Part shown: positions 44,647-56,486 of the stretch, piece after piece | How the letters are laid out: each line of letters opens with the position of its first letter | Position numbering within the stretch: position 1 is the first letter of the stretch | NCBI RefSeq assembly: GCF_007559335.1 | Contig: NZ_VMBG01000001.1 | Location: forward strand, 310,001-374,000 | DNA length: 64,000 nt | Direction: 5' to 3' | DNA from: Rariglobus hedericola | GTDB lineage: Bacteria; Verrucomicrobiota; Verrucomicrobiia; Opitutales; Opitutaceae | Made by a program: the position numbers and the translations under genes | Notes under the pieces: generated by a model | What the model saw: only the letters and a program-made list of their open reading frames with translations | The model's database searches: none | Told to the model about the DNA's origin: nothing

Positions 44647-45093
44647 ATGCCTACCCACACCATTCGCCTGCACCGCGTCTTTAAATCATCGCCGGAAAAA
44701 GTGTATCGCGCGTTTCTCGACGCCGATGCCATGTGCCGCTGGTTGCCGCCTTTCGGCTTCGTTGGAAAGATGCACCACTTCGAGCCGAAGGTTGGCGGCA
44801 GTTTCAAGATGTCGTTCATCAATTTCGGATCAGGCAAAGGGCACAGCTTTGGCGGCACCTTTCTGGAGCTCGTTCCTCACGAGCAGCTTCGTTACAATGA
44901 CAAATTCGACGATCCCGCGTTGCCGGGAGAAATGACTGTGACGGTGACATTGAAAACGGTGCTCTGCGGAACCGAGATTAACATCGAGCAGTCGGGCGTG
45001 CCCGAGGTTATCCCGGCTGAGATGTGTTATCTCGGCTGGCAGGAATCGCTCATCCAGCTGGCTCACCTCGTGGAGCCGGAAATTCCAAAGTGA
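44647..45093 (+). CDS. SRPBCC/AHSA1-type protein
   Basis: The 148-residue protein belongs to the START/Bet v1-like AHSA1 group: IRLHRVFKSSPEKVYRAFLD at the N-terminus, WLPPFGFVGKM, GGTFLELVPHEQLRY and WQESLIQLAHL near the end. These have a hydrophobic ligand pocket; biological roles are mostly unknown. A Shine-Dalgarno-like GAGG precedes the ATG. It runs into a convergent gene, overlapping it by 31 bases. It is one of three AHSA1-type genes in 12 kb. Confidence 0.82.
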   Translation: MPTHTIRLHRVFKSSPEKVYRAFLDADAMCRWLPPFGFVGKMHHFEPKVGGSFKMSFINFGSGKGHSFGGTFLELVPHEQLRYNDKFDDPALPGEMTVTVTLKTVLCGTEINIEQSGVPEVIPAEMCYLGWQESLIQLAHLVEPEIPK

Positions 45094-45389
45094 TCATCCG
45101 CTGGTGTCGGTGCAGCTCGTTGATCCCGACGGCTGGCGAGTAGGATAAACGCAGCCAGTCCTGCGGTCGCACCGAGCCACGCCAGTAGGGTTGCGTAGGC
45201 TATAGGGACCGGCGTTGAGGCGCCGCAGATCTCGGGGCCACTCAAACCGAGGACCGCCCCCGCGCCGGCGTAGGCCAGCACGCACAGCATGCATTTGGGC
45301 GCGAGTGCGAGCAACGCCGCCGGCAGCAGCCAGTGGATGGCGCGACGCGGAACCTCAGGTTGTCGCGAAGGCATCGGCGGATTGCTCAT
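45063..45389 (-). CDS. small cysteine-containing membrane protein
   Basis: The 108-residue protein has two hydrophobic segments (about residues 20-52 and 60-85) around PKCMLCVLAYAGAG, where two Cys in CMLC could bind metal or redox-cycle. I do not know its function. It is the last gene of the ArsR-AHSA1-DUF899 series, overlapping DUF899 by about 35 bases (start uncertain, another ATG 12 bases in) and the convergent SRPBCC gene at its 3' end. Confidence 0.6.
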   Translation of the reverse strand: MSNPPMPSRQPEVPRRAIHWLLPAALLALAPKCMLCVLAYAGAGAVLGLSGPEICGASTPVPIAYATLLAWLGATAGLAAFILLASRRDQRAAPTPADDHFGISGSTR

Positions 45390-46101
45390 AGCGGTCATGG
45401 TGACGAAGCCACTCCATGCCATAGTCCAAGCCTACCTCGTCGCGGCCCTTCGGAGTCAGATCGAGGATGTGATAGGTGCCCATGATGAACTCCACGCCGC
45501 GCCCGTAGGTGGAATAGGTGTGATAGATCGTGCCGGCTGCATCGCGCGTGAAGACACTGACACCGGGGGCTTCCTCGTGGGGGAATTCACGGCGACCGTA
45601 GTTGTAGTAAACTTGGTCCTCCGCCATCTGCTCCGGCGTGAAGGAGACGTGATAGTCGAAGTTGAAGTCGTTGTCGTGCGAGGAGACCCAGTTGACGTTC
45701 CATCCCATGCGTTTTTTGAACGGCAGGATCTCGGCGATCGGTGCGCGGGATACGGCGGCGAACGCTACATCGCGGGCGGGCAAGTGAACGGCGGCGGCGT
45801 TGAAATGATCCATCATGAAGGAGCAACTCTTGCAGCCCTCTTCCCAGCCGGGCCCCAGCATAAAATGTTGGATGACGAGCTGGCTGTGACCTGTGAAGAG
45901 ATCCGCCAAGGTGACACGGCCCGCGGGCCCCGTGAAGGTGTAGGGCTTGTCGATTTTGATCCACGGCAACTGGCGGCGGCGGGCGGCGAGTTCATCTTGA
46001 AGATGGAGCAGCTTCTTTTCTTCGCGCAGGAGTTCGAGGCGGGCGGTGCGCCAGTTTTCTTCGGAGACGACAGGCGGGCGGGTGGATGCGTTGGTTATCA
46101 T
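45355..46101 (-). CDS. DUF899 thioredoxin-fold protein
   Basis: The 248-residue protein matches DUF899: SEENWRTARLELLREEKKLL, then PGWEEGCKSCSFMMDHFN with a CxxC-type Cys pair (about residue 75-80) and TYHILDLTPKGRDE near the C-terminus. The thioredoxin-like fold suggests redox chemistry, but the substrate is not known. The upstream ATG at 46131 is less likely. It sits 78 bases downstream of the AHSA1 gene on the same strand and is probably under the same ArsR regulator. Confidence 0.85.
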   Translation of the reverse strand: MITNASTRPPVVSEENWRTARLELLREEKKLLHLQDELAARRRQLPWIKIDKPYTFTGPAGRVTLADLFTGHSQLVIQHFMLGPGWEEGCKSCSFMMDHFNAAAVHLPARDVAFAAVSRAPIAEILPFKKRMGWNVNWVSSHDNDFNFDYHVSFTPEQMAEDQVYYNYGRREFPHEEAPGVSVFTRDAAGTIYHTYSTYGRGVEFIMGTYHILDLTPKGRDEVGLDYGMEWLRHHDRYEQSADAFATT

Positions 46102-46179
46102 TGGGAGGCGAGGGTGGTTAGTTATGGGCAAGGCAGTGGCCTTGGGTGCGATTGCTGAGGGAAAACTACAGGAGGCGAG

Positions 46180-46728
46180 TTACGCGTTCTGTGCGTCGGT
46201 GTAGAGTTTCTGGTATTCGGCTTTGAGCTGCTTGTGCAGCGCCCAGAAAGGCGGAGGCGTCGTGTCTTCGAGCAAGGCCGCGAGCAGACTGAAATGCGTA
46301 TGCCAACCGCTTGCGTAACCGGGAATGGAAGGGATGTCTTCGCCGCGTGCACGATGAGTGAGCACAAGGATGACCTGGTCGCCCTGCGGGGTGAGTTCGA
46401 AGGTGACTTCCGAAGAGTCGTCGAACGTGTAGCTCAACAAGCGCGGTGGCTCGAAACGAAGGATGGTCGAGGGCATCGTGAAGCCCTCTGCATTCATCTG
46501 TTTGTATTGCTCTGGAGGTTCTTCGTCGGGTGAGAGATTTTGGTGTTTGAAAACGAGGTCGTTTTTTCCGCCCGCCTTCGGTTCACAGGAACCGCCGGCA
46601 AACCAGCGCGCGCGTTTTGCGGGATCCGTGAGGTATTGCCAGATGCGTTCGATGGGACCGGGAAGGGTGCGCACGAGGCGGACTTCTGCCGGACCATTAA
46701 AAGAGCCGTATGAGTCGTTGGTTTTCAT
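46180..46728 (-). CDS. SRPBCC/AHSA1-type protein downstream of ArsR
   Basis: The 182-residue AHSA1-like protein shows VRLVRTLPGPIERIWQYL, then WFAGGSCEPKAGGKND, and FELTPQGDQVILVLTHRA. It lies directly after an ArsR-type regulator gene, with the start ATG overlapping the regulator's stop codon (ATGA), a very common pairing that suggests the regulator and SRPBCC protein belong to one response. The ligand is unknown. A longer N-terminal extension is not conserved. Confidence 0.85.
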   Translation of the reverse strand: MKTNDSYGSFNGPAEVRLVRTLPGPIERIWQYLTDPAKRARWFAGGSCEPKAGGKNDLVFKHQNLSPDEEPPEQYKQMNAEGFTMPSTILRFEPPRLLSYTFDDSSEVTFELTPQGDQVILVLTHRARGEDIPSIPGYASGWHTHFSLLAALLEDTTPPPFWALHKQLKAEYQKLYTDAQNA

Positions 46729-47069
46729 GATGATGATTTTTTCTTGGTAAGTTTCTTGGCATTGGCGGCGTCTTCCGCACGCAGCTCGCGTTCGAGGGCA
46801 TCGAGGCGGCTCGACCAGACGGAGCGGGTTTTTTGCAACCACGCTTCGAGGTCGTCGAAGCCGTCGGGATTGAGTGCCTGGATGCGCGACTGACCCTCGG
46901 CTCGTGTAGAGACGAGACCGGCTTCGCGGAGAATGTTTAGGTGCTGCGAAATCGCCGGTGCGCTCATTTCGAACTCGGCGACGAGTTCACCCGAGGTCCG
47001 TTCGCGCGCGGCGAGCAGCTCGACAATTTTCCGTCGGGTGGGATCGGCAATGGCGGCAAGACTCTGCAT
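46725..47069 (-). CDS. ArsR-family transcriptional regulator
   Basis: This 114-residue winged-helix protein has LAAIADPTRRKIVELLAARE, then MSAPAISQHLNILREAGLV, the recognition helix of ArsR/SmtB regulators. There is no typical metal-binding CxC site, so metal sensing is unlikely and it may respond to other cues. An eight-base palindrome lies 9 bases upstream of the start and is the likely operator. The C-terminus is Lys-rich. It is coupled to the AHSA1 gene. Confidence 0.9.
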   Translation of the reverse strand: MQSLAAIADPTRRKIVELLAARERTSGELVAEFEMSAPAISQHLNILREAGLVSTRAEGQSRIQALNPDGFDDLEAWLQKTRSVWSSRLDALERELRAEDAANAKKLTKKKSSS

Positions 47070-47078
47070 GACGAAATA

Positions 47079-47098
47079 AATTAAGCTAAAGCTTAATT
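47079..47098. promoter_or_regulatory. candidate ArsR operator palindrome
   Basis: AATTAAGC TAAA GCTTAATT is a perfect inverted repeat with a four-base centre, followed by a further TTAAGC. It is AT-rich and lies immediately upstream of the ArsR start, where the -10 region would be, as expected for an autorepressed operon. Confidence 0.6.
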
Positions 47099-47192
47099 AA
47101 GCAATATTTAAATTATCGAACGCTTTGAGAAGCGCGGGTCGCGCCACCAACTTGGCGTTGCGAGGCATCGTGTGGCTGTTTCACTCTGCGCC

Positions 47193-48707
47193 ATGTCTTT
47201 CGCCCAGCTGGCACTTCAATCCGTCGAGTTCGCGCATCCGGGAATGACTGCGCCTTTATTCACCGATTTGACGGTGCAATTTCCTTCCGGCTGGACGGGT
47301 ATCGTCGGTCCCAATGGAGCGGGGAAGACGACGCTGCTGAAGGTCGTTACCGGCGAACTCGCGGTGCAGTCCGGCTCGGTGCATCGGCAGGGGCTGGCGC
47401 TCTATGTTGCCCAACGCACCGACGAGCCGCCGGAGATGTTTGAGGATTTTATCTGGGCGCCTGATGCCACCGTGCTCAAGGCGCGGTTGCGCGTGAGTGA
47501 AGACTGGCCGGACCGTTGGTCGACGCTCAGCCACGGCGAACGCAAGCGTGCGCAAATCGCGGTGGCACTTTGGCGCGAGCCGGCGGTGCTCGCGCTCGAT
47601 GAGCCGAGCAATCACATCGATGCCGATGCGCGGCGGTTGCTGCTGCTGGCGCTGACGGAGTTTACAGGAATCGGGCTGCTGGTGAGTCACGATCGTGCGT
47701 TGTTGGATGAACTGTGCACACAGTGTTTGATCATCGATCCGCCGGACGCGGTGATGCGGCCGGGTGGTGTTACCGAGGCAATGGAACAGCAGGATAGCGA
47801 AGAGAAATCAGCGCGCCATGCCGACGACATCATGCGCCGCACCGAGAACCGTCTCCGTGACGAAGCCCAGCGACGTCGGGTGGTTGCCGAGCAAAAGTCC
47901 GCGGCTTCACGTGGTTCCAAGCAGATCAAAATTCCGATCAACGATCATGACGGACGCGCTCAACGGAACCTCGCCAAGATGTCGGGCAAAGACGCCTACG
48001 CCGGAAAAATGGTCGCGCAGATGAATCAGCGCGCGGGCAAGGTCGCGACACAACGCTCCGAGACCACGCTGAAGAAGCGCTACGAAACCGGCATATGGGT
48101 GGATGGCGCTTCTTACATGCCGAGGGATTTTTTGCTGCGTCTGCCGGCGGGCAGTCTGCCGCTGGGTGGCGGACGTCATTTGAACTTTCCGGATCTGGAG
48201 ATTGGTGGAACGAGTCGCATCGCGATCACGGGTGCCAACGGACTCGGCAAGAGCACGCTGATCAATCATCTGCTGGCGCATCTGCAGTTGCCCGAGGAAA
48301 AGTTGGTGTCCGTGCCGCAGGAAATCTCGGCAGAGGATTCGCGCGTTTTACTGGAGGCGGTGAAGCGCCTGCCCAACGACGAACGCGGGCGCGTGATGAC
48401 TACGATCAGCCGGCTCGGTTCGCGTCCGGCTCGTTTGTTGGAGAGTGCGCTGCCAAGTCCGGGTGAAGTGAGGAAGCTGCTCCTCGCGATCGGCATCGTG
48501 CGTGGTCCGCATCTCATCGTGATGGATGAGCCGACGAATCACATGGATCTGCCGGGAATCATGTGTCTCGAAGGCGCGCTGGTGGATTGTCCCTGCGCGA
48601 TGCTGCTGGTAAGCCACGACGAAGAATTCCTGAAGAAAATTACCGCGATCGAATGGCATCTCTCGCGGGATGGGACTGGGGACACCCGGCTCGAAATTGT
48701 GGCTTGA
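47193..48707 (+). CDS. ABC-F family ATPase
   Basis: The 504-residue protein has two ABC nucleotide-binding domains and no membrane segment, the ABC-F layout linked to ribosome rescue or antibiotic resistance. Domain 1: GPNGAGKTTLLKVV, signature LSHGERKRAQ, Walker B LALDEPSNHID. Domain 2: ITGANGLGKSTLI, an unusual signature SPGEVRKLLLA and LIVMDEPTNHMD. A basic linker of about 80 residues joins them. The start at 47193 is chosen. It faces away from the ArsR operon. Confidence 0.9.
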   Translation: MSFAQLALQSVEFAHPGMTAPLFTDLTVQFPSGWTGIVGPNGAGKTTLLKVVTGELAVQSGSVHRQGLALYVAQRTDEPPEMFEDFIWAPDATVLKARLRVSEDWPDRWSTLSHGERKRAQIAVALWREPAVLALDEPSNHIDADARRLLLLALTEFTGIGLLVSHDRALLDELCTQCLIIDPPDAVMRPGGVTEAMEQQDSEEKSARHADDIMRRTENRLRDEAQRRRVVAEQKSAASRGSKQIKIPINDHDGRAQRNLAKMSGKDAYAGKMVAQMNQRAGKVATQRSETTLKKRYETGIWVDGASYMPRDFLLRLPAGSLPLGGGRHLNFPDLEIGGTSRIAITGANGLGKSTLINHLLAHLQLPEEKLVSVPQEISAEDSRVLLEAVKRLPNDERGRVMTTISRLGSRPARLLESALPSPGEVRKLLLAIGIVRGPHLIVMDEPTNHMDLPGIMCLEGALVDCPCAMLLVSHDEEFLKKITAIEWHLSRDGTGDTRLEIVA

Positions 48708-48716
48708 GCGGACATG

Positions 48717-48750
48717 AAAAAACCGCCGGCGGAAAAATCCGGCGGCGGTT
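48717..48750 (-). terminator. rho-independent terminator of the 48795 gene
   Basis: A 12-bp stem with one mismatch is drawn from AACCGCCG...CGGA and TCCG...CGGCGGTT (48721-48750). On the minus strand it is followed by a T run, so it ends the short minus-strand gene upstream (48795-49043). It also lies just after the stop of the + strand ABC-F gene. Confidence 0.7.
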
Positions 48751-48794
48751 GAGAAACGGTAATGCGGGGCTAAGCCCGACGGCCGTGTGGTTGC

Positions 48795-49043
48795 TTACTC
48801 GAGACCCTTGGCCTTGAGGAGCGCGGCGAGTTCGACGGGATCGGCGACGCCTTGCACGGTGTTGAGCAGACCGAGAACCTTGAGACGCTCGTCGGAGCTG
48901 CAGCTGGAGATCTCGATCATCCAGTCTTCGGACTTGGGGGCGGCGACGATCACCTCGTCGGACCATGCGATGACCTCGGCGGCGTCGATGACGCCGGAAG
49001 TGATGCCTTTGATGTAGTATTCAGCCTGGGTGCGGTAGTTCAT
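48795..49043 (-). CDS. hypothetical 82-residue protein
   Basis: I do not recognise this acidic 82-residue protein. It is soluble and has no motif I can name; NYRTQAEYYIKGITSG is the N-terminus and LGLLNTVQGVADPVELAALL lies near the C-terminus. It is followed by a good terminator on its own strand, which supports it being a genuine gene. Confidence 0.6.
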   Translation of the reverse strand: MNYRTQAEYYIKGITSGVIDAAEVIAWSDEVIVAAPKSEDWMIEISSCSSDERLKVLGLLNTVQGVADPVELAALLKAKGLE

Positions 49044-49097
49044 GGATGCAGCGACTGTGGTGGTCCCGGCACGAGAGCCAAGGCGGAAATCTTCCGA

Positions 49098-49133
49098 TAA
49101 AAAGGCCTTGTTTCCCGAGTGGAAAACAAGGCC
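49098..49133 (-). terminator. rho-independent terminator of the GH74-like gene
   Basis: GGCCTTGTTT (49104-49113) pairs with AAACAAGGCC (49124-49133) around a ten-base loop. On the minus strand the hairpin is followed by a T-rich run. It lies just after the stop of the 1064-codon gene. Confidence 0.75.
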
Positions 49134-49147
49134 ATGCCTGACGAGGC

Positions 49148-52100
49148 TTACTGCTGGATCAGTTTGAGCTGAGGCTGATTGGCGGCGGCTTCGCGGGAGT
49201 TAAACGTGATGTTGGTGGTGCTGCCGGCGGTGAGCGATTGGATTACCAACGTCACCGTGTTGCGGCCGGCGGCCTTCTCCTGCTGGAGATAGGCGGTCAC
49301 GTCCCATTCAAACCACGTTCCGACCGGACTGCTGCCGGGTATGGTGACAGTCGCGAGCGATGAACCGGTGGCGGCGGGCTTGGTGCCCCACGTGATACCG
49401 GTTTCAAGCCAGCTGGTGTTAGCGCAAGCGTAGATACCGATAGAGCGGCTGGTGGTGTTGGCATCTTGAATACACAGGCGAACCTTGCCCGAGCTGAGTG
49501 CGCCGGAGGCGCTGCTCAGATCAAACTTGAGGTAGGCCTGACGATTCCAGTCGACCGCATCGAGTTTCACCGTGAGCGCGGGATCAGCGCCGTAGTTGGT
49601 CGAGGCGCTGACGCCGTCCTTCACAAAGGCATCGGCCGAGGCGGCGAGCGTGATGTCGTTGGCGACGACTTTCAACTGAGGCTGGTTGCTGGCGGCCTGG
49701 CGGGAATTGAAAGTGACGCCGGTTGTGCTGCCCTGCGTGGACGATTGCAGCACGAGCGTCACCGTGTTGCGACCGGCGGCTTTCTCCTGCTGCAGGTAGG
49801 TGGTCACGTCCCATTCAAGCCAAGTGCCGGCGGCGAGACCGCCGGGAATCGTGACGGATGAGAGCGCGGCGCCGGTGGTGGCGGGTTTGGTGCTCCACGT
49901 GATGCCGCTTTCAGACCAGCTGCTGTTGGCGCTGGCGTAGAGGCCGATGGAGCTGCTGGCTGCGCCGGCCGACTGCACGCACAGGCGAACCCGACCCGAG
50001 TTAATCGGACCGGAGACGCTGCTCAGATCGAACTTGAGGTAGGTCTGGCGATTCCAGTCCACCGCATCGTTTTTCACAGTGAGTCCGGTATCCGTGCCGT
50101 AGTTGGTCGAGGCACTGACGCCGTCTTTGACGAAGGCATCGGCCGAAGCGGCGAGCGTAACGTCGCCGGCCACAGAGCCCACCATCACGCCGTTGCCGGT
50201 GGTGCCAAAAAACACGCGGCCGTAAACCTGACGGTCAGCCGTCATGCTGTTGGGATTCACGCCGATTTGTGGCGGACCGAGATTGGTCCAGGAAACGCCG
50301 TTGTTGTCGGAGCGGAAAAGGCTGTCCGCGATATTATTGACCGTGCCGAAAACATAGATCGCGGGAACCGTCGGGCTGTCGGGCGAGGCTTTGCCCACCG
50401 ACATGAACTCCGCGCTTTGCACGTTGGTGATCTTGGTGAAAGACGCACCCGAGTTGGTCGAATGATAAAGTCCTTCGGTGATAATGCCGACCCAGACATC
50501 GCCTTCCTTGCCCGGCGTGGTGTCCACGGTCAGGTTGTTTTGCGGCCACGAATACGGGAGCGCTCCGCCTGCGGAAAAGGTCACGCCGGCATCGGTGCTC
50601 ACATACATTTTGGAGTTATGATAAACGTAGAACTTGTTTCCGTTCACTTTGTCGGCGGCCAAGGGATAGCGGGGGCCGGCCGAAAAGAGATTGTTTCCAC
50701 CAATGATAATGCCAACGGGCAGGGTCGGAATCGCGGTCCAGGTCACCCCGCGATTGGCGGAGCGATAGGAGCCGTTTTGCTGGGTGACCCACACCATGGT
50801 TTCGCTGGTGGCTGAGACGGCGACACGACCACCGGCGGCATCTGAGGGGCTGGTCCATTGCGTATAGGACGTGCCGCCGTTGGTGGAGTATCCGGCATAG
50901 GCCGCACCGTCCCAACCTACGCGACCAACGCGTGCGATGAAGTCGGGATTCGTTTCCTGCACGGCTACACCGGTCATGTTGCCGGTTCCCGGTTTGGCGA
51001 AGGTCCACGGAAAGAACGTCATCATGCCGATCGAGGGCGACGTGGTGAGGGACTTGTGATCCCAACCGCCGATATCGGCGATGCTGGAGAGCAGGACATT
51101 GCTGCCCGAGGGCGGAGACAGAAGCGTGCCGATGGAAACAGTTTCTTCGTGGCCTGCGGCGCGGGCTTTCCATGTGATGTTGGCGGGCGTCGCCCACACG
51201 TCGGTGGTTTGATAGGCAAAGAAGAAATCGCTGAACCAGACGCTGCTCGAGTTAAACGGATCCCAGCAAAAACTCGTCGAGGCCTGACCGATGCTGGTGT
51301 CAAACCAAGGTGCCTCGGACTTGTCGGCGATCCGGTTCATGAAGGTCCAAGTCGCTCCGCCGTCGTTGGAGCGGTAGTGATTAAAAGGGCCGTAGTTCGG
51401 GGTGAACGTGCTGCTGTTCACGACGACTTGGAGACTGTTCTGCGGATTGACCGCCACGCCTGCGTAAGCGGCGGAAGCGGGCGGGGTGATGGTGGCCCAG
51501 CTGCTGCCGTTCCACTTAAACACGCCACCGCCGGGAGTCGTGGACCACGGGTTGCCGGCCGTCACATAGAGCGTGCCATTGGAATGAGCGTCGGCTTTGA
51601 CCACACCGGTCGGGCTGCCCGCCATCAATGTGAACGAGGCGCCGCCATCGGTGCTGCGATACACGCCGTTGGAGCACCCGAGGTAAATGTTTTTGGTCAC
51701 ACCACCGACGAGTCCGCCGCTGACGTCGAACTGCACGAAGCTTCCGTAGAGATCGTTGATCTTCGTCCACGACGCACCGGCGTCGGTGGACTTGAAGGTT
51801 CCGTTCGTGGCGGTGACCGTCGCACTGGAGCGAGTCGTGACATACACGACATTGCTGTTCAACGGATCGACCGCGATGCGTTGTCCGGCGCCCTGTTCGC
51901 TATTGGGTTTAACATCGATCAGAATGGAGCAGGCCGCCCAGGTGTCTCCCCGGTTGGAAGATTTCAAGACCGTGCCATCGACGCTCCACGGACCGCCGAC
52001 CGTCGCGTAAAGCGTGTTGCCCGTCGTGTCGGCCGGGGCAAAGGCAAGGCGGGCCGCTGCATGGCGATTATCCCAGCCGCTGACCGAATTTTTGTAGAAC

Positions 52101-52342
52101 AGGCCTTCCCAACGTTGGGTTGTGTGGTTCCAGCGGTAGGGCGTGCCCACATCCGTGGTGATGAAAAAAAGATTCTGCACCTTCGGATGGGCCTGGACGG
52201 TGGTGGTCGCACCGCCGCCGCCGATGCGGACGGTATTCCAGTTCATGGCTTGGGCAGTTGCGGCGATACACGAACTCAGGAACAGGCCTACAAGCAGGCC
52301 GAAGCGCAGAGGGGTTTTAATGAACCGTGGGGTAATATTCAT
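49148..52342 (-). CDS. secreted GH74-like beta-propeller glycosidase with two DNRLRE-type modules
   Basis: This 1064-residue protein begins with a signal peptide (FGLLVGLFLSSCIAATAQA) and about 690 residues of sialidase/BNR-like propeller repeats (STDAGASWTK, STDGGASFTL, SNDGGATWTF). Two candidate catalytic Asp sites resemble GH74 xyloglucanases: ITTDVGTPYRWN (about residue 57) and ADIGGWDHKS. C-terminally, residues 727-895 and 896-1064 are two near-identical 169-residue carbohydrate-binding/adhesion modules with TLAASADAFVKDGV and WNRQ-YLKFDLSS. The sequence supports a secreted xyloglucan-active enzyme; the substrate is inferred. It is transcribed alone with a terminator behind it. Confidence 0.82.
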   Translation of the reverse strand: MNITPRFIKTPLRFGLLVGLFLSSCIAATAQAMNWNTVRIGGGGATTTVQAHPKVQNLFFITTDVGTPYRWNHTTQRWEGLFYKNSVSGWDNRHAAARLAFAPADTTGNTLYATVGGPWSVDGTVLKSSNRGDTWAACSILIDVKPNSEQGAGQRIAVDPLNSNVVYVTTRSSATVTATNGTFKSTDAGASWTKINDLYGSFVQFDVSGGLVGGVTKNIYLGCSNGVYRSTDGGASFTLMAGSPTGVVKADAHSNGTLYVTAGNPWSTTPGGGVFKWNGSSWATITPPASAAYAGVAVNPQNSLQVVVNSSTFTPNYGPFNHYRSNDGGATWTFMNRIADKSEAPWFDTSIGQASTSFCWDPFNSSSVWFSDFFFAYQTTDVWATPANITWKARAAGHEETVSIGTLLSPPSGSNVLLSSIADIGGWDHKSLTTSPSIGMMTFFPWTFAKPGTGNMTGVAVQETNPDFIARVGRVGWDGAAYAGYSTNGGTSYTQWTSPSDAAGGRVAVSATSETMVWVTQQNGSYRSANRGVTWTAIPTLPVGIIIGGNNLFSAGPRYPLAADKVNGNKFYVYHNSKMYVSTDAGVTFSAGGALPYSWPQNNLTVDTTPGKEGDVWVGIITEGLYHSTNSGASFTKITNVQSAEFMSVGKASPDSPTVPAIYVFGTVNNIADSLFRSDNNGVSWTNLGPPQIGVNPNSMTADRQVYGRVFFGTTGNGVMVGSVAGDVTLAASADAFVKDGVSASTNYGTDTGLTVKNDAVDWNRQTYLKFDLSSVSGPINSGRVRLCVQSAGAASSSIGLYASANSSWSESGITWSTKPATTGAALSSVTIPGGLAAGTWLEWDVTTYLQQEKAAGRNTVTLVLQSSTQGSTTGVTFNSRQAASNQPQLKVVANDITLAASADAFVKDGVSASTNYGADPALTVKLDAVDWNRQAYLKFDLSSASGALSSGKVRLCIQDANTTSRSIGIYACANTSWLETGITWGTKPAATGSSLATVTIPGSSPVGTWFEWDVTAYLQQEKAAGRNTVTLVIQSLTAGSTTNITFNSREAAANQPQLKLIQQ
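49151..50164. repeat. tandem duplication of a 507-bp module
   Basis: Two adjacent 507-base units (49151-49657 and 49658-50164) encode two 169-residue modules of the same length with highly similar sequence, including identical stretches such as ASADAFVKDGVSASTNYG and LQQEKAAGRNTVTLV. This is an intragenic duplication in the 3' end of the GH74-like gene and could contract or expand by recombination. Confidence 0.85.
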
Positions 52343-52693
52343 GGTTATGGGGTGGAGTTTTCTTCTCGCAGGGGAGCGCGAAGCAAAGGGGGATGAACCG
52401 CAAAAGACCTAGCTGGGAAAGCCAGCGTCGTAGGATGATAAGGGGTGGGGACAAGCTAACAGAAAGAGAAGCGACCTATCCCGTAGCGGATGAACTCAGG
52501 TGTCTGCTAGCCCTCAGTGAGCCATAGATGCAAAGTCTTAGCCGCTTGTTCGAACAACAGATCAGTTGCGAATAGTGGACTGAGGTTCAGTGGCGTTTTC
52601 CGCAGTGAATCAGTCCGGTATTCGCTGGAAAAACGCGCCGCGATTCCTAGGCTCTCCAGTCAGTTCCCTTCGTTACCCCAACCCCTGATTAGC
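52343..52693. other. divergent intergenic region between GH74-like and LamG/PEP-CTERM genes
   Basis: About 350 bases hold the promoters of two divergent secreted-protein genes. I see no further ORF with coding character. A small hairpin GCTGG...CCAGC with a GAAA-like loop lies in the left third. I could not recognise promoter boxes or a known riboswitch. Confidence 0.5.
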
Positions 52694-53533
52694 ATGAACT
52701 CGTTTTTGACGTCGGCGCTTATGCGCGCGCTGTTTATCTTTACGGTCGGCCTGCTGGCGAACTCCGCCGGTGCGCAGACCTTGCTTTCGCATTATAAGCT
52801 TGATGGAAACGGCACGGATTTCGGCACGCTGGCGGTGAATGGCACGACGAGTGGAGCGGCGGCTTTTACCAACACCGGTGCCGGCGTGGGTGTATTTGAT
52901 AAAGCACTACGCGTTGGCACTGGAGCCACCGATCATTTTGTCGCTCCGACCGCCAATAATTCCGCCTATGCCTTGAGTGCGATCACCATCGCGCTTTGGG
53001 TCAATGTCGACACGGCATCGATGAATGACCGGCTGGTGTCCACGCTCACGGGCACCAACGGATTTGATCTCTACATGGGGGGCTACACTGTCGGAGGTGG
53101 TTCGGGTGGCGCGGATTTGTTCAACCTGACGTTTGTAGTCAATGGCACCAGCGGCGGTGTGTCATCGACAAGCGCAACCTATGTGAGCGACAAATGGCTT
53201 TTCCTCGCGGTTACCTACAGCGCAAATACGGCCTTGTTCTACAGTGGTGATCTCACGACGGCCGCATCCTTGAAGAGCACATTGAGCTATGCGGGGGGCT
53301 CCATCGTTGCCAGCTCGGCCGACCTTGAAATCGGCGGAACTCCGGCTACGACGAACGACCGCACGCCGACCGCACTTTTCAACGATGTGCGCATCTACAG
53401 TGGCGCGTTGACCGCTTTGCAGCTCGAGGCCGTGCGCGCCTCCACGATACCGGAGCCTTCTCAGACTGCGTTGGCCTCCGGTCTTTTGGCTTTCGCGTTT
53501 TTGATTATTCAAGCGCGCCGCCGTCGCTGCTGA
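52694..53533 (+). CDS. LamG-domain PEP-CTERM protein
   Basis: The 279-residue secreted protein has a signal peptide (MRALFIFTVGLLANSAGAQT), a LamG/concanavalin-like beta-sandwich domain (HYKLDGNGTDFG at the start, ITIALWVNVDT, VRIYSGALTALQLE) and a C-terminal PEP-CTERM sorting signal: IPEPSQ, a hydrophobic stretch and RRRR. These proteins are thought to be processed by an exosortase and placed in the envelope or exopolysaccharide. No exosortase gene is in this window. The longer in-frame start upstream is not conserved. Confidence 0.88.
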   Translation: MNSFLTSALMRALFIFTVGLLANSAGAQTLLSHYKLDGNGTDFGTLAVNGTTSGAAAFTNTGAGVGVFDKALRVGTGATDHFVAPTANNSAYALSAITIALWVNVDTASMNDRLVSTLTGTNGFDLYMGGYTVGGGSGGADLFNLTFVVNGTSGGVSSTSATYVSDKWLFLAVTYSANTALFYSGDLTTAASLKSTLSYAGGSIVASSADLEIGGTPATTNDRTPTALFNDVRIYSGALTALQLEAVRASTIPEPSQTALASGLLAFAFLIIQARRRRC

Positions 53534-53601
53534 GCGAATCGCGGGCGGCTATTCCGTTTGTGCGTTTGCCACGGACGTAATGCGTTTTGAGTGTTTGCAC
53601 C

Positions 53602-54339
53602 GTGCCAAATGAAACCCGTGAAGTCCGACCGTTTTCAAAACTTCGTCATGTCCTGACGCTGGATGGACGGGTGCTCGCGGTGCCGGACGATTGGGAACTG
53701 CTGCCGCCGGGCGACGCGGCCTTGAGCCGGCGTATCAAAGAAGACGGACCGACGTGGACGGTTATCGAGATGAAAGGGCGGAAACGTTTTTCACGCGGCA
53801 TCTGGGCTTCGAAGGAACGGATTGCCGCGCTCCAACTGGCACGCGCGGATGAACGGCTCGACCCCGATTATCAACGTAAGTTGGATGCGGGTCGCAAACG
53901 GCGGGCAGCCGAACAGGTCGAGTATGAACAAGACTTTCGGTCGGCGGTGATGGCGTTTTTGAGGTTTCATCCGAGTCGGTCTGCGGAGGCGGAGTTGATG
54001 GCGCGGCTGATCACCGATCATGCGGTGCCGGTGGGCAGTGGCACGGTCGCGCGCACTGAACGCATTCCAATCGAGGAACGGGCCGAGGCGGCGACCATCG
54101 CCTGGATGCGGCATCAAACGACCGGTTATGACAACATGGTCATCCCTTTGGTGAAAGGTCGCCGCCGGGAGGTGAGACGGCTGTTGGCTCAGCGTTCGCA
54201 CCAGCTGCTTACGCGTTACCGGGAAGGGTATGACATCGACCCTGTCACGTGTCCGCTGGCACGCGCATTGGCTCAACATCGATCCAAACCACTCGCGGTT
54301 CCGTCGTCGATGAATCCGCAGATGGCTTTGGGTTTATGA
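53602..54339 (+). CDS. DUF2293 domain protein
   Basis: The 245-residue protein contains a DUF2293 domain in its second half: AVMAFLRFHPSRSAEAELM, GSGTVARTERIPIEERAE, WMRHQTTGYDNMV and GRRREVRRLLAQRSHQLL. Proteins of this type are uncharacterised and probably bind nucleic acids given the many basic residues. The GTG start at 53602 is chosen; a TTG five codons upstream is possible. It lies 68 bases after the PEP-CTERM gene. Confidence 0.75.
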   Translation: MPNETREVRPFSKLRHVLTLDGRVLAVPDDWELLPPGDAALSRRIKEDGPTWTVIEMKGRKRFSRGIWASKERIAALQLARADERLDPDYQRKLDAGRKRRAAEQVEYEQDFRSAVMAFLRFHPSRSAEAELMARLITDHAVPVGSGTVARTERIPIEERAEAATIAWMRHQTTGYDNMVIPLVKGRRREVRRLLAQRSHQLLTRYREGYDIDPVTCPLARALAQHRSKPLAVPSSMNPQMALGL

Positions 54340-54355
54340 AGATGAATACGCGGAT

Positions 54356-54928
54356 TTAAACCTTGAGTGAGCCGCGGAAGCCACGGCCGCTGTAGTAGGA
54401 TTGTGCGCCGTTGTGATAAATGAACACGCGGTCGTAGCGGCGGTCGCCGAAGAGGGCACCCCCGAGTTTTCGGATGTCGTCCGGAGCCACCACCCAGCTC
54501 GATGATTTGCGGTCAAACTTTCCGAGCATCTGCAGGTCGCGGTATTGATCTTCGTTTAGCATCTCGATGCCCATCTCCGCTGCCATGTCCATGGCGCTGT
54601 TTTTGGGTTTATGCTCTTTGCGCGATTCAAGTCCTTCGCGATCGTAACATAGCGAAGTGCGGCCGTCGGGGCTTTCGGGCGAACAATCGAAGAACGTGTA
54701 TTCGCCGGTTTTCTTGTCGTGGGCAACGACGTCCGGCTCGCCGCCGGTTCGTTCCATTTCATGGAGCGACCAAAGCTTTGCGGGCTTGGATTCCAGACGG
54801 GTTTTCACCTTGGACCAATCGACGTCTTTGTGCCGGTTGATGTATTCTTCGAAGCGGGCCTGCAGTTTTTTGAGGAGCGCTTCACGTTGCTCGGATGAAA
54901 GTGTTTTTTTGGTTTCAGCTGACTTCAT
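54356..54928 (-). CDS. DUF4256 domain protein
   Basis: The 190-residue protein matches DUF4256: LWSLHEMERTGGEPDVV, FFDCSPESPDGR, LCYDREGLESRK and a C-terminal VFIYHNGAQSYYSGRGF. The family function is unknown. It is the last gene of the second ArsR-AHSA1 series on the minus strand, with a 37-base gap to the small membrane gene. Confidence 0.82.
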   Translation of the reverse strand: MKSAETKKTLSSEQREALLKKLQARFEEYINRHKDVDWSKVKTRLESKPAKLWSLHEMERTGGEPDVVAHDKKTGEYTFFDCSPESPDGRTSLCYDREGLESRKEHKPKNSAMDMAAEMGIEMLNEDQYRDLQMLGKFDRKSSSWVVAPDDIRKLGGALFGDRRYDRVFIYHNGAQSYYSGRGFRGSLKV

Positions 54929-54965
54929 ATAAAATTTTTGGATGGGGATTCGCGGGAGCGTGAGG

Positions 54966-55175
54966 TTAGGATGATTTTCGGGAAAAAAGCCGGCTGAGGA
55001 GGTGGCCCTTCCACATCAAAAGACCCGACAAAACCAGGACCGGAACATAGACAAACCGGAAGTAGGGCAGGTATTGCACCGTCTCTGAAGGGGGACCGTA
55101 AATATAGCCCAGAATGGGCAGGCCGAAGAGGATGTGGATCCAACGAAGAATCGAGCGTTTGGTGCCTGGCTTCAT
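54966..55175 (-). CDS. small membrane protein in the second ArsR operon
   Basis: This 69-residue protein has two hydrophobic segments (IHILFGLPILGYIYG and FRFVYVPVLVLSGLLMW) and a basic C-terminus. I do not recognise it. It lies 26 bases downstream of the AHSA1 gene and 37 bases upstream of DUF4256 on the same strand, and so is probably part of that operon. The first ArsR operon also contains a small membrane gene, though not a similar one. Confidence 0.65.
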   Translation of the reverse strand: MKPGTKRSILRWIHILFGLPILGYIYGPPSETVQYLPYFRFVYVPVLVLSGLLMWKGHLLSRLFSRKSS

Positions 55176-55201
55176 GGTATGGTGCAGGTGTGTTGGTTAT
55201 T

Positions 55202-56056
55202 TTATAAATTCTGGCCCGCGAGAAACGCTTGCAGCCGGTCCAGGTTTTGTTCGTTGGCCGGCTCACAGATCGGACGCATCGCTGCCGCCGCCTCCGGACT
55301 TTCGAACTCTTGAATCCAGTCCAGGTGGGTTTGCCCGTCACGAGCCGCCAAAGTGACCGTCAATCGAAACCATGGCTTCACGACGTGCTCGATCACGATT
55401 CTGGTGTCGGGCGCGATTTCGCGGAAAACGCTTTCGTTGGGGTAGTCGGCGCCGTTTGGGCTGTGCATCACAAAGACCCAGCGTCCGCCGGGCTTGAACT
55501 CGAATTGCGTGAACGTGTTCTTGAAGCCGCTGGGGCCCCACCAGCGCGCGAGTTGATCCGGCTGCTCGAAGGCGGCGAAGATCTTTTGCGGACTTGCGGC
55601 CAGGGTTCGCCCGGTGCGCAAGGCGGCTCCTGAACGTGCGATCACATGGGACAGTTGTCCCAGCATCTTTGCCCAGCCAAACCCTGCGCCTTGGAAGGCT
55701 TGTTCACCCCAGGGTTGAGAAACGTCGAAACCGGCGTGTTCAAAAAATACCCGCGTGCCGTCGCCCTCGGGTTCGAGCCGGAAGCTCACCTGCGTGTTGA
55801 CGACGGGACCGCCGGCAGACCAGGAAAACACGAGATGGGCAGGAGCCTCGCACTCCAGCACTTCGCAGTGGACGGTCAGTCCTTCAAAGCCGACAGCGGG
55901 ATTGGGCGGCACGAGAAACGTGAAGGCATGCCCGACGCGCGGTTCGAAATCGTTGGGATACATCCAATCCGCGAGGGCGTCGCGATGGGAGATCGCGCGC
56001 CAGACTTGCTCGCGAGGTTGGGGAACCAGAATTTCACGACGGATGGTTTTGCTCAT
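55202..56056 (-). CDS. tandem AHSA1/SRPBCC protein downstream of ArsR
   Basis: The 284-residue protein carries two consecutive AHSA1-type domains: residues 1-140 (EILVPQPREQVWRAISH, FSWSAGGPVV) and residues 150-284 (TLAASPQKIFAAFEQPDQL, WWGPSGFKNTF, FKPGGRWVFVMH). The start ATG overlaps the ArsR stop codon, showing translational coupling. A two-domain AHSA1 protein is less common than the single domain form. Ligand unknown. Confidence 0.85.
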   Translation of the reverse strand: MSKTIRREILVPQPREQVWRAISHRDALADWMYPNDFEPRVGHAFTFLVPPNPAVGFEGLTVHCEVLECEAPAHLVFSWSAGGPVVNTQVSFRLEPEGDGTRVFFEHAGFDVSQPWGEQAFQGAGFGWAKMLGQLSHVIARSGAALRTGRTLAASPQKIFAAFEQPDQLARWWGPSGFKNTFTQFEFKPGGRWVFVMHSPNGADYPNESVFREIAPDTRIVIEHVVKPWFRLTVTLAARDGQTHLDWIQEFESPEAAAAMRPICEPANEQNLDRLQAFLAGQNL

Positions 56057-56385
56057 TTGGTGCTCCCCTTGGACAGGTGTTTTTGAAGGCGTTGCAGGCG
56101 GTCGTCCCAGAATCGTTCGTAGCCGGCGATCCAGTCGCGCACCGGACTGAGTTGCTCGGGAACGAAGTGATAATGGCGTTCGCGACCGTGGCGTTGTTCG
56201 CTCACGAGACCGGCATCGAGCAGGATGCGCAGATGCTGGGAGACGGCAGGGCGGCTCATTTCAAAGTGAGCGGCGATATCGCTGACCGAGCGTTTATCCT
56301 CGGTGAGCAAATCGAGCATCTGGCGCCGCGCACGGTGACTGATCGCGTTAAACACATCAGACTCGCGATTGATGGACATGACCAT
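56053..56385 (-). CDS. ArsR-family transcriptional regulator (second copy)
   Basis: The 110-residue winged helix protein has FNAISHRARRQMLDLLTE, then MSRPAVSQHLRILLDAGLV, the ArsR recognition helix. It again lacks an obvious metal-binding motif. The start at 56385 is one of three closely spaced ATG codons. A palindrome lies 13 bases upstream. It is the paralogue of the regulator at 46725 and has the same downstream partner class. Confidence 0.88.
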   Translation of the reverse strand: MVMSINRESDVFNAISHRARRQMLDLLTEDKRSVSDIAAHFEMSRPAVSQHLRILLDAGLVSEQRHGRERHYHFVPEQLSPVRDWIAGYERFWDDRLQRLQKHLSKGSTK

Positions 56386-56397
56386 GCCGGCAGAATG

Positions 56398-56415
56398 CGT
56401 AAGCGATCTCTTACG
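56398..56415. promoter_or_regulatory. candidate operator of the second ArsR operon
   Basis: CGTAAG CGATCT CTTACG is a perfect 6-bp inverted repeat 13 bases upstream of the ArsR start. It is in the same relative position as the palindrome at 47079, but its sequence differs, so the two regulators probably have different specificity. Confidence 0.5.
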
Positions 56416-56486
56416 TGTCAAGCGTGCCTTCGTATGAAGGTTTGCGGGAACGATTGAGCCGGCGATCTGCTGGCGCGCGACTCTTG

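Follow-up and report, generated by a model that had tools for sequence, protein, structure and literature searches.

A four-gene ArsR-AHSA1 operon of Rariglobus hedericola suggests that two residues of the regulator set two bases of its operator

Organization of the operon

The window analyzed here is a 64,000-nt stretch of the Rariglobus hedericola genome, and its region 54356–56415 contains a minus-strand operon of four genes encoding, in order, an ArsR-family regulator, a two-domain AHSA1 protein, a small hydrophobic protein and a DUF4256 protein. The regulator gene (56053–56385, with the start ATG at 56385 or 56379) encodes a product matching Pfam HTH_5 at 60.7 bits (cut-off 22), and its stop codon overlaps the start codon of the AHSA1 gene (55202–56056, with two AHSA1 stretches) as ATGA. 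The small protein (69 aa, 54966–55175, without a Pfam match), encoded 26 nt further downstream, is probably a membrane protein, as judged by eye, and a gap of 37 nt separates its gene from that of the DUF4256 protein (54356–54928; Pfam PF14066, 290.8 bits, cut-off 27). When the window coordinates were rechecked, the positions, gene order and overlap given in the initial annotation all held. No Rfam match was found across 44–58 kb of the window.

Since a co-directional AHSA1 gene directly follows the ArsR gene, with HTH_5 and AHSA1 both above their Pfam cut-offs, the operon is a member of the known ArsR-COG3832 (AHSA1) modules, for which 280 adjacencies were tabulated in 2009 (PMC2701414). As described in the parts of that paper cited here, these pairs likewise have ArsR beside AHSA1, occur in multiple copies in many genomes, have regulators that lack metal motifs and come with no stated operator, whereas the present operon has two unlike AHSA1 domains fused and continues with the small hydrophobic protein and DUF4256. 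Among related regulators, AHSA1 was detected by Pfam scan in 72 of the 78 proteins encoded directly downstream of named relatives; this count is the reliable figure and was preferred over that of a home-made AHSA1 profile, an insensitive one, which detected AHSA1 downstream in 94 of 291 cases and upstream only in 18 more. The Rv2034-Rv2035-Rv2036 operon of Mycobacterium tuberculosis is similar in that an ArsR gene is followed by an overlapping gene for a START-type (Polyketide_cyc2) protein (PMC3338718). A similar layout was found in Planctomycetales ZRK34, which shares the order ArsR-AHSA1-small protein and the operator GTAAG-N6-CTTAC (76% identity for ArsR, 69–70% for the N-terminal half of AHSA1 and 67% for the small protein), but in which AHSA1 is single-domain and no DUF4256 gene lies within ~2.3 kb past the small-protein gene.

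A paralogous module, also on the minus strand, is located at 45–47 kb, and the parallel in layout that had been proposed is present: an ArsR gene (46725–47069, by Pfam scan and sequence reading; recognition helix S-A-P-A-I-S-Q-H-L), an overlapping AHSA1 gene (46180–46734) and a DUF899 gene (45355–46131), the latter two by Pfam scan, with a palindrome upstream. The two ArsR proteins are 37% identical over 93 residues.

Fused AHSA1 gene and accessory genes

The N-terminal half of the AHSA1 protein (55631–56056) shares 69% identity with the single-domain AHSA1 of Planctomycetales ZRK34, and the C-terminal half (55202–55630, matching Pfam AHSA1) 63.6% with a different single-domain AHSA1, that of locus L060. 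The two halves are not significantly similar to one another (E 0.07). As read from the sequence, two dissimilar members of the family have been fused in this gene, and the internal duplication proposed in the initial annotation is ruled out, the halves being unlike and having different nearest relatives.

Homologues of the small protein are encoded directly before DUF4256 in two loci (L036 and L043) and directly after AHSA1 in the Planctomycetales locus (L104). DUF4256 was found beside ArsR-AHSA1 in none of 26 relatives, nor was ArsR-AHSA1 present in two plasmid contexts of DUF4256. It is thus ruled out, in this sample, as a conserved partner of ArsR-AHSA1, an outcome that the initial annotation had named as evidence against its own reading. 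The association with DUF899, named in the same place, does recur near AHSA1, in L065, L071, L078 and, within the listed 40 of 80 loci, at least L132. A structure prediction for the DUF4256 protein from its single sequence had a mean pLDDT of 41 and was disregarded, and a PDB sequence search found no relative.

Operators and promoter region

A palindrome, CGTAAG-N6-CTTACG (56398–56415; operator B), lies 12 bases ahead of the first ATG of the 56-kb ArsR gene and is its predicted operator. The corresponding palindrome of the paralogous module (47079–47098; operator A, also predicted) contains TTAAG-N6-CTTAA. The two had been described as different, which applies to the outer base, T at 47 kb and G at 56 kb, but not to the core TAAG-N6-CTTA and the spacing, which are identical. 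This core is rare, with six copies in the 4.15-Mb genome, of which only operators A and B are situated just upstream of a gene; by ORF reading, three of the other copies are inside coding frames and the fourth is at a gene's 3' end.

The footprint of Rv2034, an autorepressor, is GTAAG-N6-CTTAC (PMC3338718), identical to operator B in its arms and spacing, so that an Rv2034-type operator stands upstream of the 56-kb ArsR's own gene. Rv2034 acts on further promoters in M. tuberculosis as well (PMC3338718). No other characterized operator for ArsR-AHSA1 pairs was found in the literature searched. Directly 5' of operator B on the minus strand is a -35-like hexamer, TTGACA (56416–56421); no sigma-70-like promoter passed a consensus scan of the region. 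At positions -30 to 0 of 157 operators, TTGAC occurred 65 times, as compared with 4.5 times in shuffled sequences.

Regulator family

The 56-kb ArsR passed the NCBIfam model NF033788 (metalloregulator ArsR/SmtB, HTH_metalloreg) with 84 bits against a cut-off of 55, a match which names the helix-turn-helix and says nothing on metal sensing. Neither ArsR protein of the window contains a cysteine, so cysteine metal ligands are absent from the 56-kb ArsR (108 aa). This protein was judged to lack what we take to be the metal-binding motifs of ArsR/SmtB, cysteine by sequence and histidine sites by eye. Apart from the name of the matched model, a classical metal- or arsenic-responsive operon is opposed by the missing cysteines, by an operon that contains no efflux or reductase gene, by the insensitivity of Rv2034 to zinc and four other metals reported in the cited part of PMC3338718, and by the description, in the cited part of PMC2701414, of the AHSA1-linked ArsR subfamily as having no metal motifs; we consider it extremely unlikely.

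The match to the SdpR autorepressor family (NF033789) reached 69.2 bits, below its cut-off of 100. ArsR-COG3832 has been listed as a toxin-antitoxin-like candidate (PMC2701414), which, with a weak match to the Rv0910-family type II toxin model (NF047960), would fit a pair with AHSA1 as toxin and ArsR as antitoxin and repressor. However, at 19.5 bits that match stayed below its cut-off of 100, the operon has four genes with a fused AHSA1 that has no match in PADLOC, and antibiotic resistance was the role that the authors of the listing considered most plausible (PMC2701414); a toxin-antitoxin pair is therefore very improbable. In PADLOC, ArsR matched 21 models of the defence library via its helix-turn-helix, and the AHSA1, small and DUF4256 proteins matched none; the ArsR matches were not read as pointing to defence.

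Relation between recognition helix and operator

The recognition helix of the 56-kb ArsR comprises residues 43–55, numbered from the ATG at 56379 (56215–56253; AlphaFold2, mean pLDDT 92). In a mutual-information scan, the top columns for bases 1 and 5 of the half site were those of residues 43 and 48, which are R43 (56251–56253) and Q48 (56236–56238) in this protein and A43 and Q48 in the 47-kb ArsR. Across 293 regulators (366 before identical ArsR proteins were merged), residue 48 corresponds to the core (Q with TAAG, K with TAAC) and residue 43 to the outer base (R with G, Q with A, L or A with T). A count of the dyad arms in each residue class, carried out independently of this rule, supports it.

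The rule was fixed beforehand and then applied to new regulators; some of these loci had been collected earlier, with operators unseen at that time except for the upstream stretch of L086. Among 205 validation regulators, 49 were ineligible, having a residue outside the rule. The 45 with an exact NTAAN dyad all fit both bases (permutation mean 10.3, highest value 21), both when the insensitive profile had detected an AHSA1 neighbour (21 of 21) and when it had not (24 of 24); an exact dyad was absent from 111 of the 156 eligible regulators, many with a non-canonical helix, and from 26 of 88 in the discovery set. Where a new regulator had a canonical helix, a site with at most one mismatch to the predicted operator was present in 43 of 47 cases, as against 2 of 235 trials with wrong-code operators.

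These correspondences could reflect shared ancestry, helix and operator having been inherited together with no direct readout of bases by residues. The ArsR tree is poorly resolved, well-supported branches alone provide few contrasts (3, 2, 2, 1 and 1, below significance), and operator sharing becomes commoner with rising regulator identity. In the full tree, whose construction omitted the helix columns, tree-independent contrasts (own script) nevertheless agreed in 10 of 10 cases for residue 48 and 11 of 11 for Q43, and for R43 in 7, with 0 opposed and 2 unchanged, while controls with swapped residues and bases were null. In a column scan of 82 representatives, columns 43 (z 33.6 for base 1, next 8.3) and 48 (z 35.9 for base 5, next 7.6) stood far above all others. 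Close pairs that differ at a code residue also change in the matching base, as do L160 and L159, 70% identical outside the helix, with ATAAC for Q43 and TTAAC for L43. Trees, contrasts and column scans covered the 157 regulators for which exactly one arm recurred in at least 3 regulators, leaving out 136 of the 293; a GC-rich arm, GCGGC (4 regulators), was removed by hand. Taken with these contrasts, co-inheritance without direct readout appears quite improbable, and the data suggest instead that two residues of the regulator set two letters of its DNA site, so that such operators would be partly readable from the protein sequence.

NolR is a symbiosis regulator and, to our knowledge, is not known as an AHSA1 partner. 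Its complex with DNA (4omy; 4on0) has the same fold as the 56-kb ArsR. Gln56 of NolR, at position 43 of our alignments, contacts A or T at the variable outer base (PMC8960804; 4on0); the NolR consensus, (A/T)TTAG-N9-A(T/A), differs from operator B (PMC8960804). DNA binding by HlyU requires its Gln63 (PMC4330345), the residue that aligns with position 48.

Both regulators of the window have Q48 and differ at residue 43, and thus should read related but distinct sites, with T predicted as the outer base for A43 at 47 kb. Of the 28 exact NTAAN dyads of R43 regulators, 27 have G as the outer base (discovery 18 of 19, validation 9 of 9), the exception being the discovery regulator L139 (SRPAVSQHL with TTAAG); in the column-scan set, T is the outer base in 2 of 21 R43 representatives. 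Operators A and B share their core and are its sole copies just upstream of a gene, and Rv2034 can bind one half site on its own (PMC3338718), so each regulator might bind the other's operator and the two modules form one regulon. We regard this as doubtful, since the two differing outer bases are precisely those expected from residue 43. Paralogy of the two modules, as initially annotated, is borne out by their ArsR proteins, and their divergent specificity is predicted from the outer base only, following residue 43. Within genomes, 5 of 92 regulator pairs have an operator in common (permuted mean 8.6, permutation fraction 0.12; identity-matched expectation 7.5), so that the deficit in sharing among these 92 pairs is not significant as a sign of selection for insulation.

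It is likely that the relation extends to a collinear code in which residues 43, 44, 45 and 48 read half-site bases 1, 2, 3–4 and 5 on either side of a six-base spacer: R=G, Q=A and L/A=T at residue 43; P=T, A/N/Q=C and T=G at 44; A=AA, T=AG or CG and Q/S=TC at 45; and Q=G and K/R=C at 48. The two-residue part (43 and 48) is well supported by the tests above, and the four-residue extension is weaker. In a held-out test, 11 of 20 regulators were predictable, the other 9 having a helix residue outside the code table; the prediction was within one mismatch for 6, exact for 2 of these, and failed for 5. Other arms came within one mismatch in 3 of 133 cases, all ATAGC (L456, L457 and L466, with ATAAC predicted). 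Such a code would allow an operator to be written from the protein sequence, and single residues could keep paralogues within a cell apart. No paper on a residue-base code of this kind was found in the open-licence PMC literature, and five short peptides had no match in PMC4048274. For the LacI, GntR, MerR and IclR families, titles there do mention recognition codes or correlations between residues and motifs.

Proposed regulation and implications

The reading that we consider highly probable from these comparisons is an autorepressed ArsR-AHSA1 operon, released by a ligand other than a cysteine-bound metal, with a helix-set specificity distinct from that of the 47-kb paralogue. The operon is probably self-repressing: an ArsR dimer would sit on CGTAAG-N6-CTTACG, taking up the interval from the TTGACA box to the start codon, and, because promoter space would be occupied, all four genes would be shut off until the ligand releases the regulator. 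Specificity would be set by the recognition helix, Q48 selecting the inner G of TAAG and R43 the outer G, and the difference at residue 43 may keep the two modules separate.

The ArsR-AHSA1 pair is widespread, and the residue-to-base rule would turn two similar operons whose palindromes differ into a question of point mutations. If true, it would yield the target sites of many regulators at once, explain the coexistence of several paralogues in one genome, and supply small repressors whose operators are predictable and possibly orthogonal.

Organization of the operon and its genomic setting

The second ArsR-AHSA1 unit is encoded on the minus strand by four genes: ArsR (56385 or 56379 to 56053), AHSA1 (56056–55202), a small hydrophobic protein of 69 residues (55175–54966) and, last, DUF4256 (54928–54356). 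The AHSA1 start lies within the ArsR stop codon (ATGA), and the gaps after AHSA1 and after the small protein are 26 and 37 nt. A TTGACA hexamer (56421–56416, minus strand) contains the start of the long ArsR ORF at 56421, and the palindrome CGTAAG-N6-CTTACG (operator B, 56415–56398) fills the space directly after it; the first ArsR ATG, at 56385, lies beyond the operator. These coordinates bear out the gene order, overlap and upstream palindrome of the initial annotation. The likeness it saw to the operon at 45–47 kb also holds for the head (overlapping ArsR and AHSA1 genes), but that operon ends with DUF899.

The Rariglobus hedericola genome (4.15 Mb, 16 contigs) encodes four ArsR-type helix-turn-helix domains and four AHSA1 domains above cut-off; a fifth AHSA1 match scored 21.2 bits, below the cut-off of 22.1. 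Positions 44647–56056 of the window, a 12-kb stretch, hold two of the four ArsR domains and every AHSA1 domain that exceeds the Pfam cut-off. A third AHSA1 gene (44647–45093, plus strand) runs into the end of a short hydrophobic ORF of the opposite strand (45063–45422), and its product shares 71% identity with the AHSA1 protein of locus L085, from another family of the phylum.

Composition of the AHSA1 gene and its partners

Pfam detected two AHSA1 stretches in the operon's AHSA1 gene, which had been described as internally duplicated. That description does not fit: the halves share no significant similarity (E 0.07), and each is close to a different single-domain AHSA1, the N half to that of Planctomycetales ZRK34 (69% identity) and the C half to that of L060, a locus in another genome of the same class (63.6% identity). 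Sequence comparison thus indicates that the gene is a fusion. The ZRK34 operon, of identical gene order, is the closest seen (ArsR 76% and small protein 67% identical), and its AHSA1 resembles the N half only of the window protein. The window operon thus looks like a ZRK34-type three-gene unit with a fused second AHSA1 domain and an added DUF4256.

DUF4256 is present in 27 of the 387 genomes of the phylum sample. No homologue of the window ArsR or AHSA1 was found beside it in the 26 others (tblastn, E up to 1e-3; neighbourhoods of 12–13 kb in 23 genomes, shorter for L037, L047 and L056), and DUF4256 is therefore not a fixed partner of ArsR-AHSA1. The small protein lies directly upstream of DUF4256 in 2 of these 26 genomes and was matched in 7 of 387, including the source genome, two of the seven matches being weak. 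At L093 (1054–1743), a 229-aa ORF has the small hydrophobic protein as its N-terminal part and seems to be a fusion to a second domain. DUF4256 also occurs on 11 plasmid-collection records (H1–H11), including five of Acinetobacter baumannii and one of Mycoplasmopsis; ArsR-AHSA1 was not next to it in the two plasmid contexts inspected.

The two palindromes

Operator B contains GTAAG-N6-CTTAC, and operator A, of the 45–47 kb module, includes TTAAG-N6-CTTAA. The palindromes, which had been said to differ, do so in the outer base (G in B, T in A) but share the core TAAG-N6-CTTA. This core occurs 6 times in the genome, versus 40 for the reversed control pattern: two copies are the ArsR promoters and, by ORF reading, three lie within coding frames and one at a gene 3' end. 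Full operator B has one further genomic copy, inside a coding frame, and full operator A has none. Two operator copies per promoter, 16 to 31 bases apart, were seen at many loci in other genomes (L107, L112, L114, L116, L117, L123, L128, L131, L136, L137, L138, L139, L158 and L173), where cooperative or two-dimer binding is possible.

Recognition helix residues and operator bases

Upstream of ArsR-AHSA1 relatives, operator type tracks the recognition helix S-X-P-A-[IV]-S-Z-H-L. Among 80 named loci, chosen with PA[IV]S[KQ]HLx[VI]L as selection pattern (the top 80 of at least 593 confirmed), i) Gln at Z (residue 48, counted from ATG 56379) goes with TAAG and Lys with TAAC, and ii) at X (residue 43) Arg goes with outer G, Gln with A, and Leu, Ala, Met or Pro with T. 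ArsR B has R43 and Q48. The rule was recorded before the operators of further regulators were examined, the upstream stretch of L086 being the one exception seen earlier, although the loci of some of these regulators had been retrieved by then.

The aligned set comprised 293 distinct regulators (88 discovery, 205 new). Without use of the rule, an exact 5-bp dyad with a six-base spacer was found in 209 of 293, versus 56 in shuffles; adjoining even spacers were also raised, as expected of nested dyads. In all eight rule-covered residue classes with at least 5 members, again tallied without the rule, the predicted arm was the most frequent, TCAAC and TGAAC being also common in the L43-K48 class. 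Among 156 new regulators eligible for validation, an exact NTAAN-N6 dyad was present in 45, where shuffled upstreams would give 0.58, and absent from 111; both bases were as predicted in 45/45, whereas permuted pairings gave a mean of 10.3 agreeing and a maximum of 21. These 45 form 28 clusters, and 33 are less than 70% identical outside the helix to every discovery regulator. In the discovery set, 61 of the 62 dyads (from 88 regulators) agreed, the exception being L139. With one mismatch allowed, 43 of 47 new canonical regulators had the predicted operator, and operators of a wrong code turned up in 2 of 235 trials. We regard the two-residue rule, as a statement about sequences, as a result. 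Searches of open-licence papers returned no earlier description, and one may exist elsewhere.

Shared ancestry could also pair residues with bases. A tree of 157 regulators was made with the helix columns left out; independent contrasts on it, chosen by our own script, were 10 for and 0 against of 10 (residue 48, base 5), 11 and 0 of 11 (Q43, A), 7 and 0 of 9 with 2 unchanged (R43, G), 8 and 0 of 11 with 3 unchanged (small/aliphatic 43, T) and about 6.5 and 0 of 9 (P44, T at base 2). On the same tree, swapped controls, in which residue 43 was set against base 5 and residue 48 against base 1, showed no signal. The contrast branches are mostly weakly supported, and restriction to supported ones leaves each trait with 1 to 3 contrasts, not enough for a test. 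In a column scan of 82 representatives, base 1 had its top score with column 43, base 2 with 44, both base 3 and base 4 with 45, and base 5 with 48. Together these data argue that the residue-operator match is not just ancestry.

Structure and studied relatives

In the ArsR B model (mean pLDDT 92), the recognition helix starts at residue 43. Rv2034 presumably has the helix SRPAVSQHL, of the same class as ArsR B. This protein, whose gene opens an ArsR-START operon, has a reported footprint, CCGTAAGT-N4-ACTTACGG, with arms and spacing identical to operator B, and is described there as not responding to zinc and four other metals (PMC3338718). Residues 1–89 of the model aligned to 14–102 of the NolR-DNA complex (4omy), and the offset of 13 was also given by the sequence profile; residue 43 thereby corresponds to NolR Gln56, a range-based mapping that assumes no compensating gaps. 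Gln56 is reported to contact the variable outer base (A or T), its change to alanine altering affinity less than twofold (PMC8960804). Aligned to HlyU (4ooi; 1–77 to 16–92), residue 48 corresponds, on the same assumption, to Gln63, whose change to alanine reportedly abolished DNA binding (PMC4330345). The HlyU site, TAATTCAGACTAAATTA, does not have the TAAG form of the window operators (PMC4330345), and HlyU therefore backs the importance of position 48, not the base rule.

Proposed regulation

ArsR would occupy the palindrome of its own operon, which separates the TTGACA box from the start codon. Among relatives, TTGAC occurs 65 times within 30 bases upstream of 157 operators, versus 4.5 in shuffles; a strict scan of the operon's upstream region returned no promoter. 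Since ArsR has no cysteines, metal sensing through classical cysteine sites is unlikely; a ligand, perhaps also bound by the START-fold AHSA1, would release it. Strong cross-reaction with the 47-kb paralogue would not be expected, because the latter has alanine 43 and T in place of G in its operator. The operon is one of the ArsR-COG3832 pairs reported in 2009, whose authors considered them TA-like but held a role in antibiotic resistance to be more plausible (PMC2701414). Against the Rv0910 toxin family, the AHSA1 protein scores 19.5 bits, below the cut-off of 100.

Other helix classes

A four-position table was fixed before trial on 20 further regulators, 9 of which had residues outside it. 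Among the 11 that could be predicted, the exact dyad was present in 2 and one with no more than a single mismatch in 6, versus 3 of 133 trials with other known arms; 5 failed (L464, L468, L470, L474, L475). Because of these failures and the 9 regulators outside the table, the extension is only a lead. The helices SQPVVSKHL (L458, L459, L467) and TQGAISQHL (L460, L461, L462, L469, L472), also outside the code table, each recur across several genomes, and L342 and L353 form a separate class with the helix K/R-P-T-V-S-H-H-L and the operator TTCGA-N6-TCGAA. Asticcacaulis solisilvae (G424, reached via L118) has seven operator-assigned regulators with six distinct operators, a natural test bed for orthogonality.
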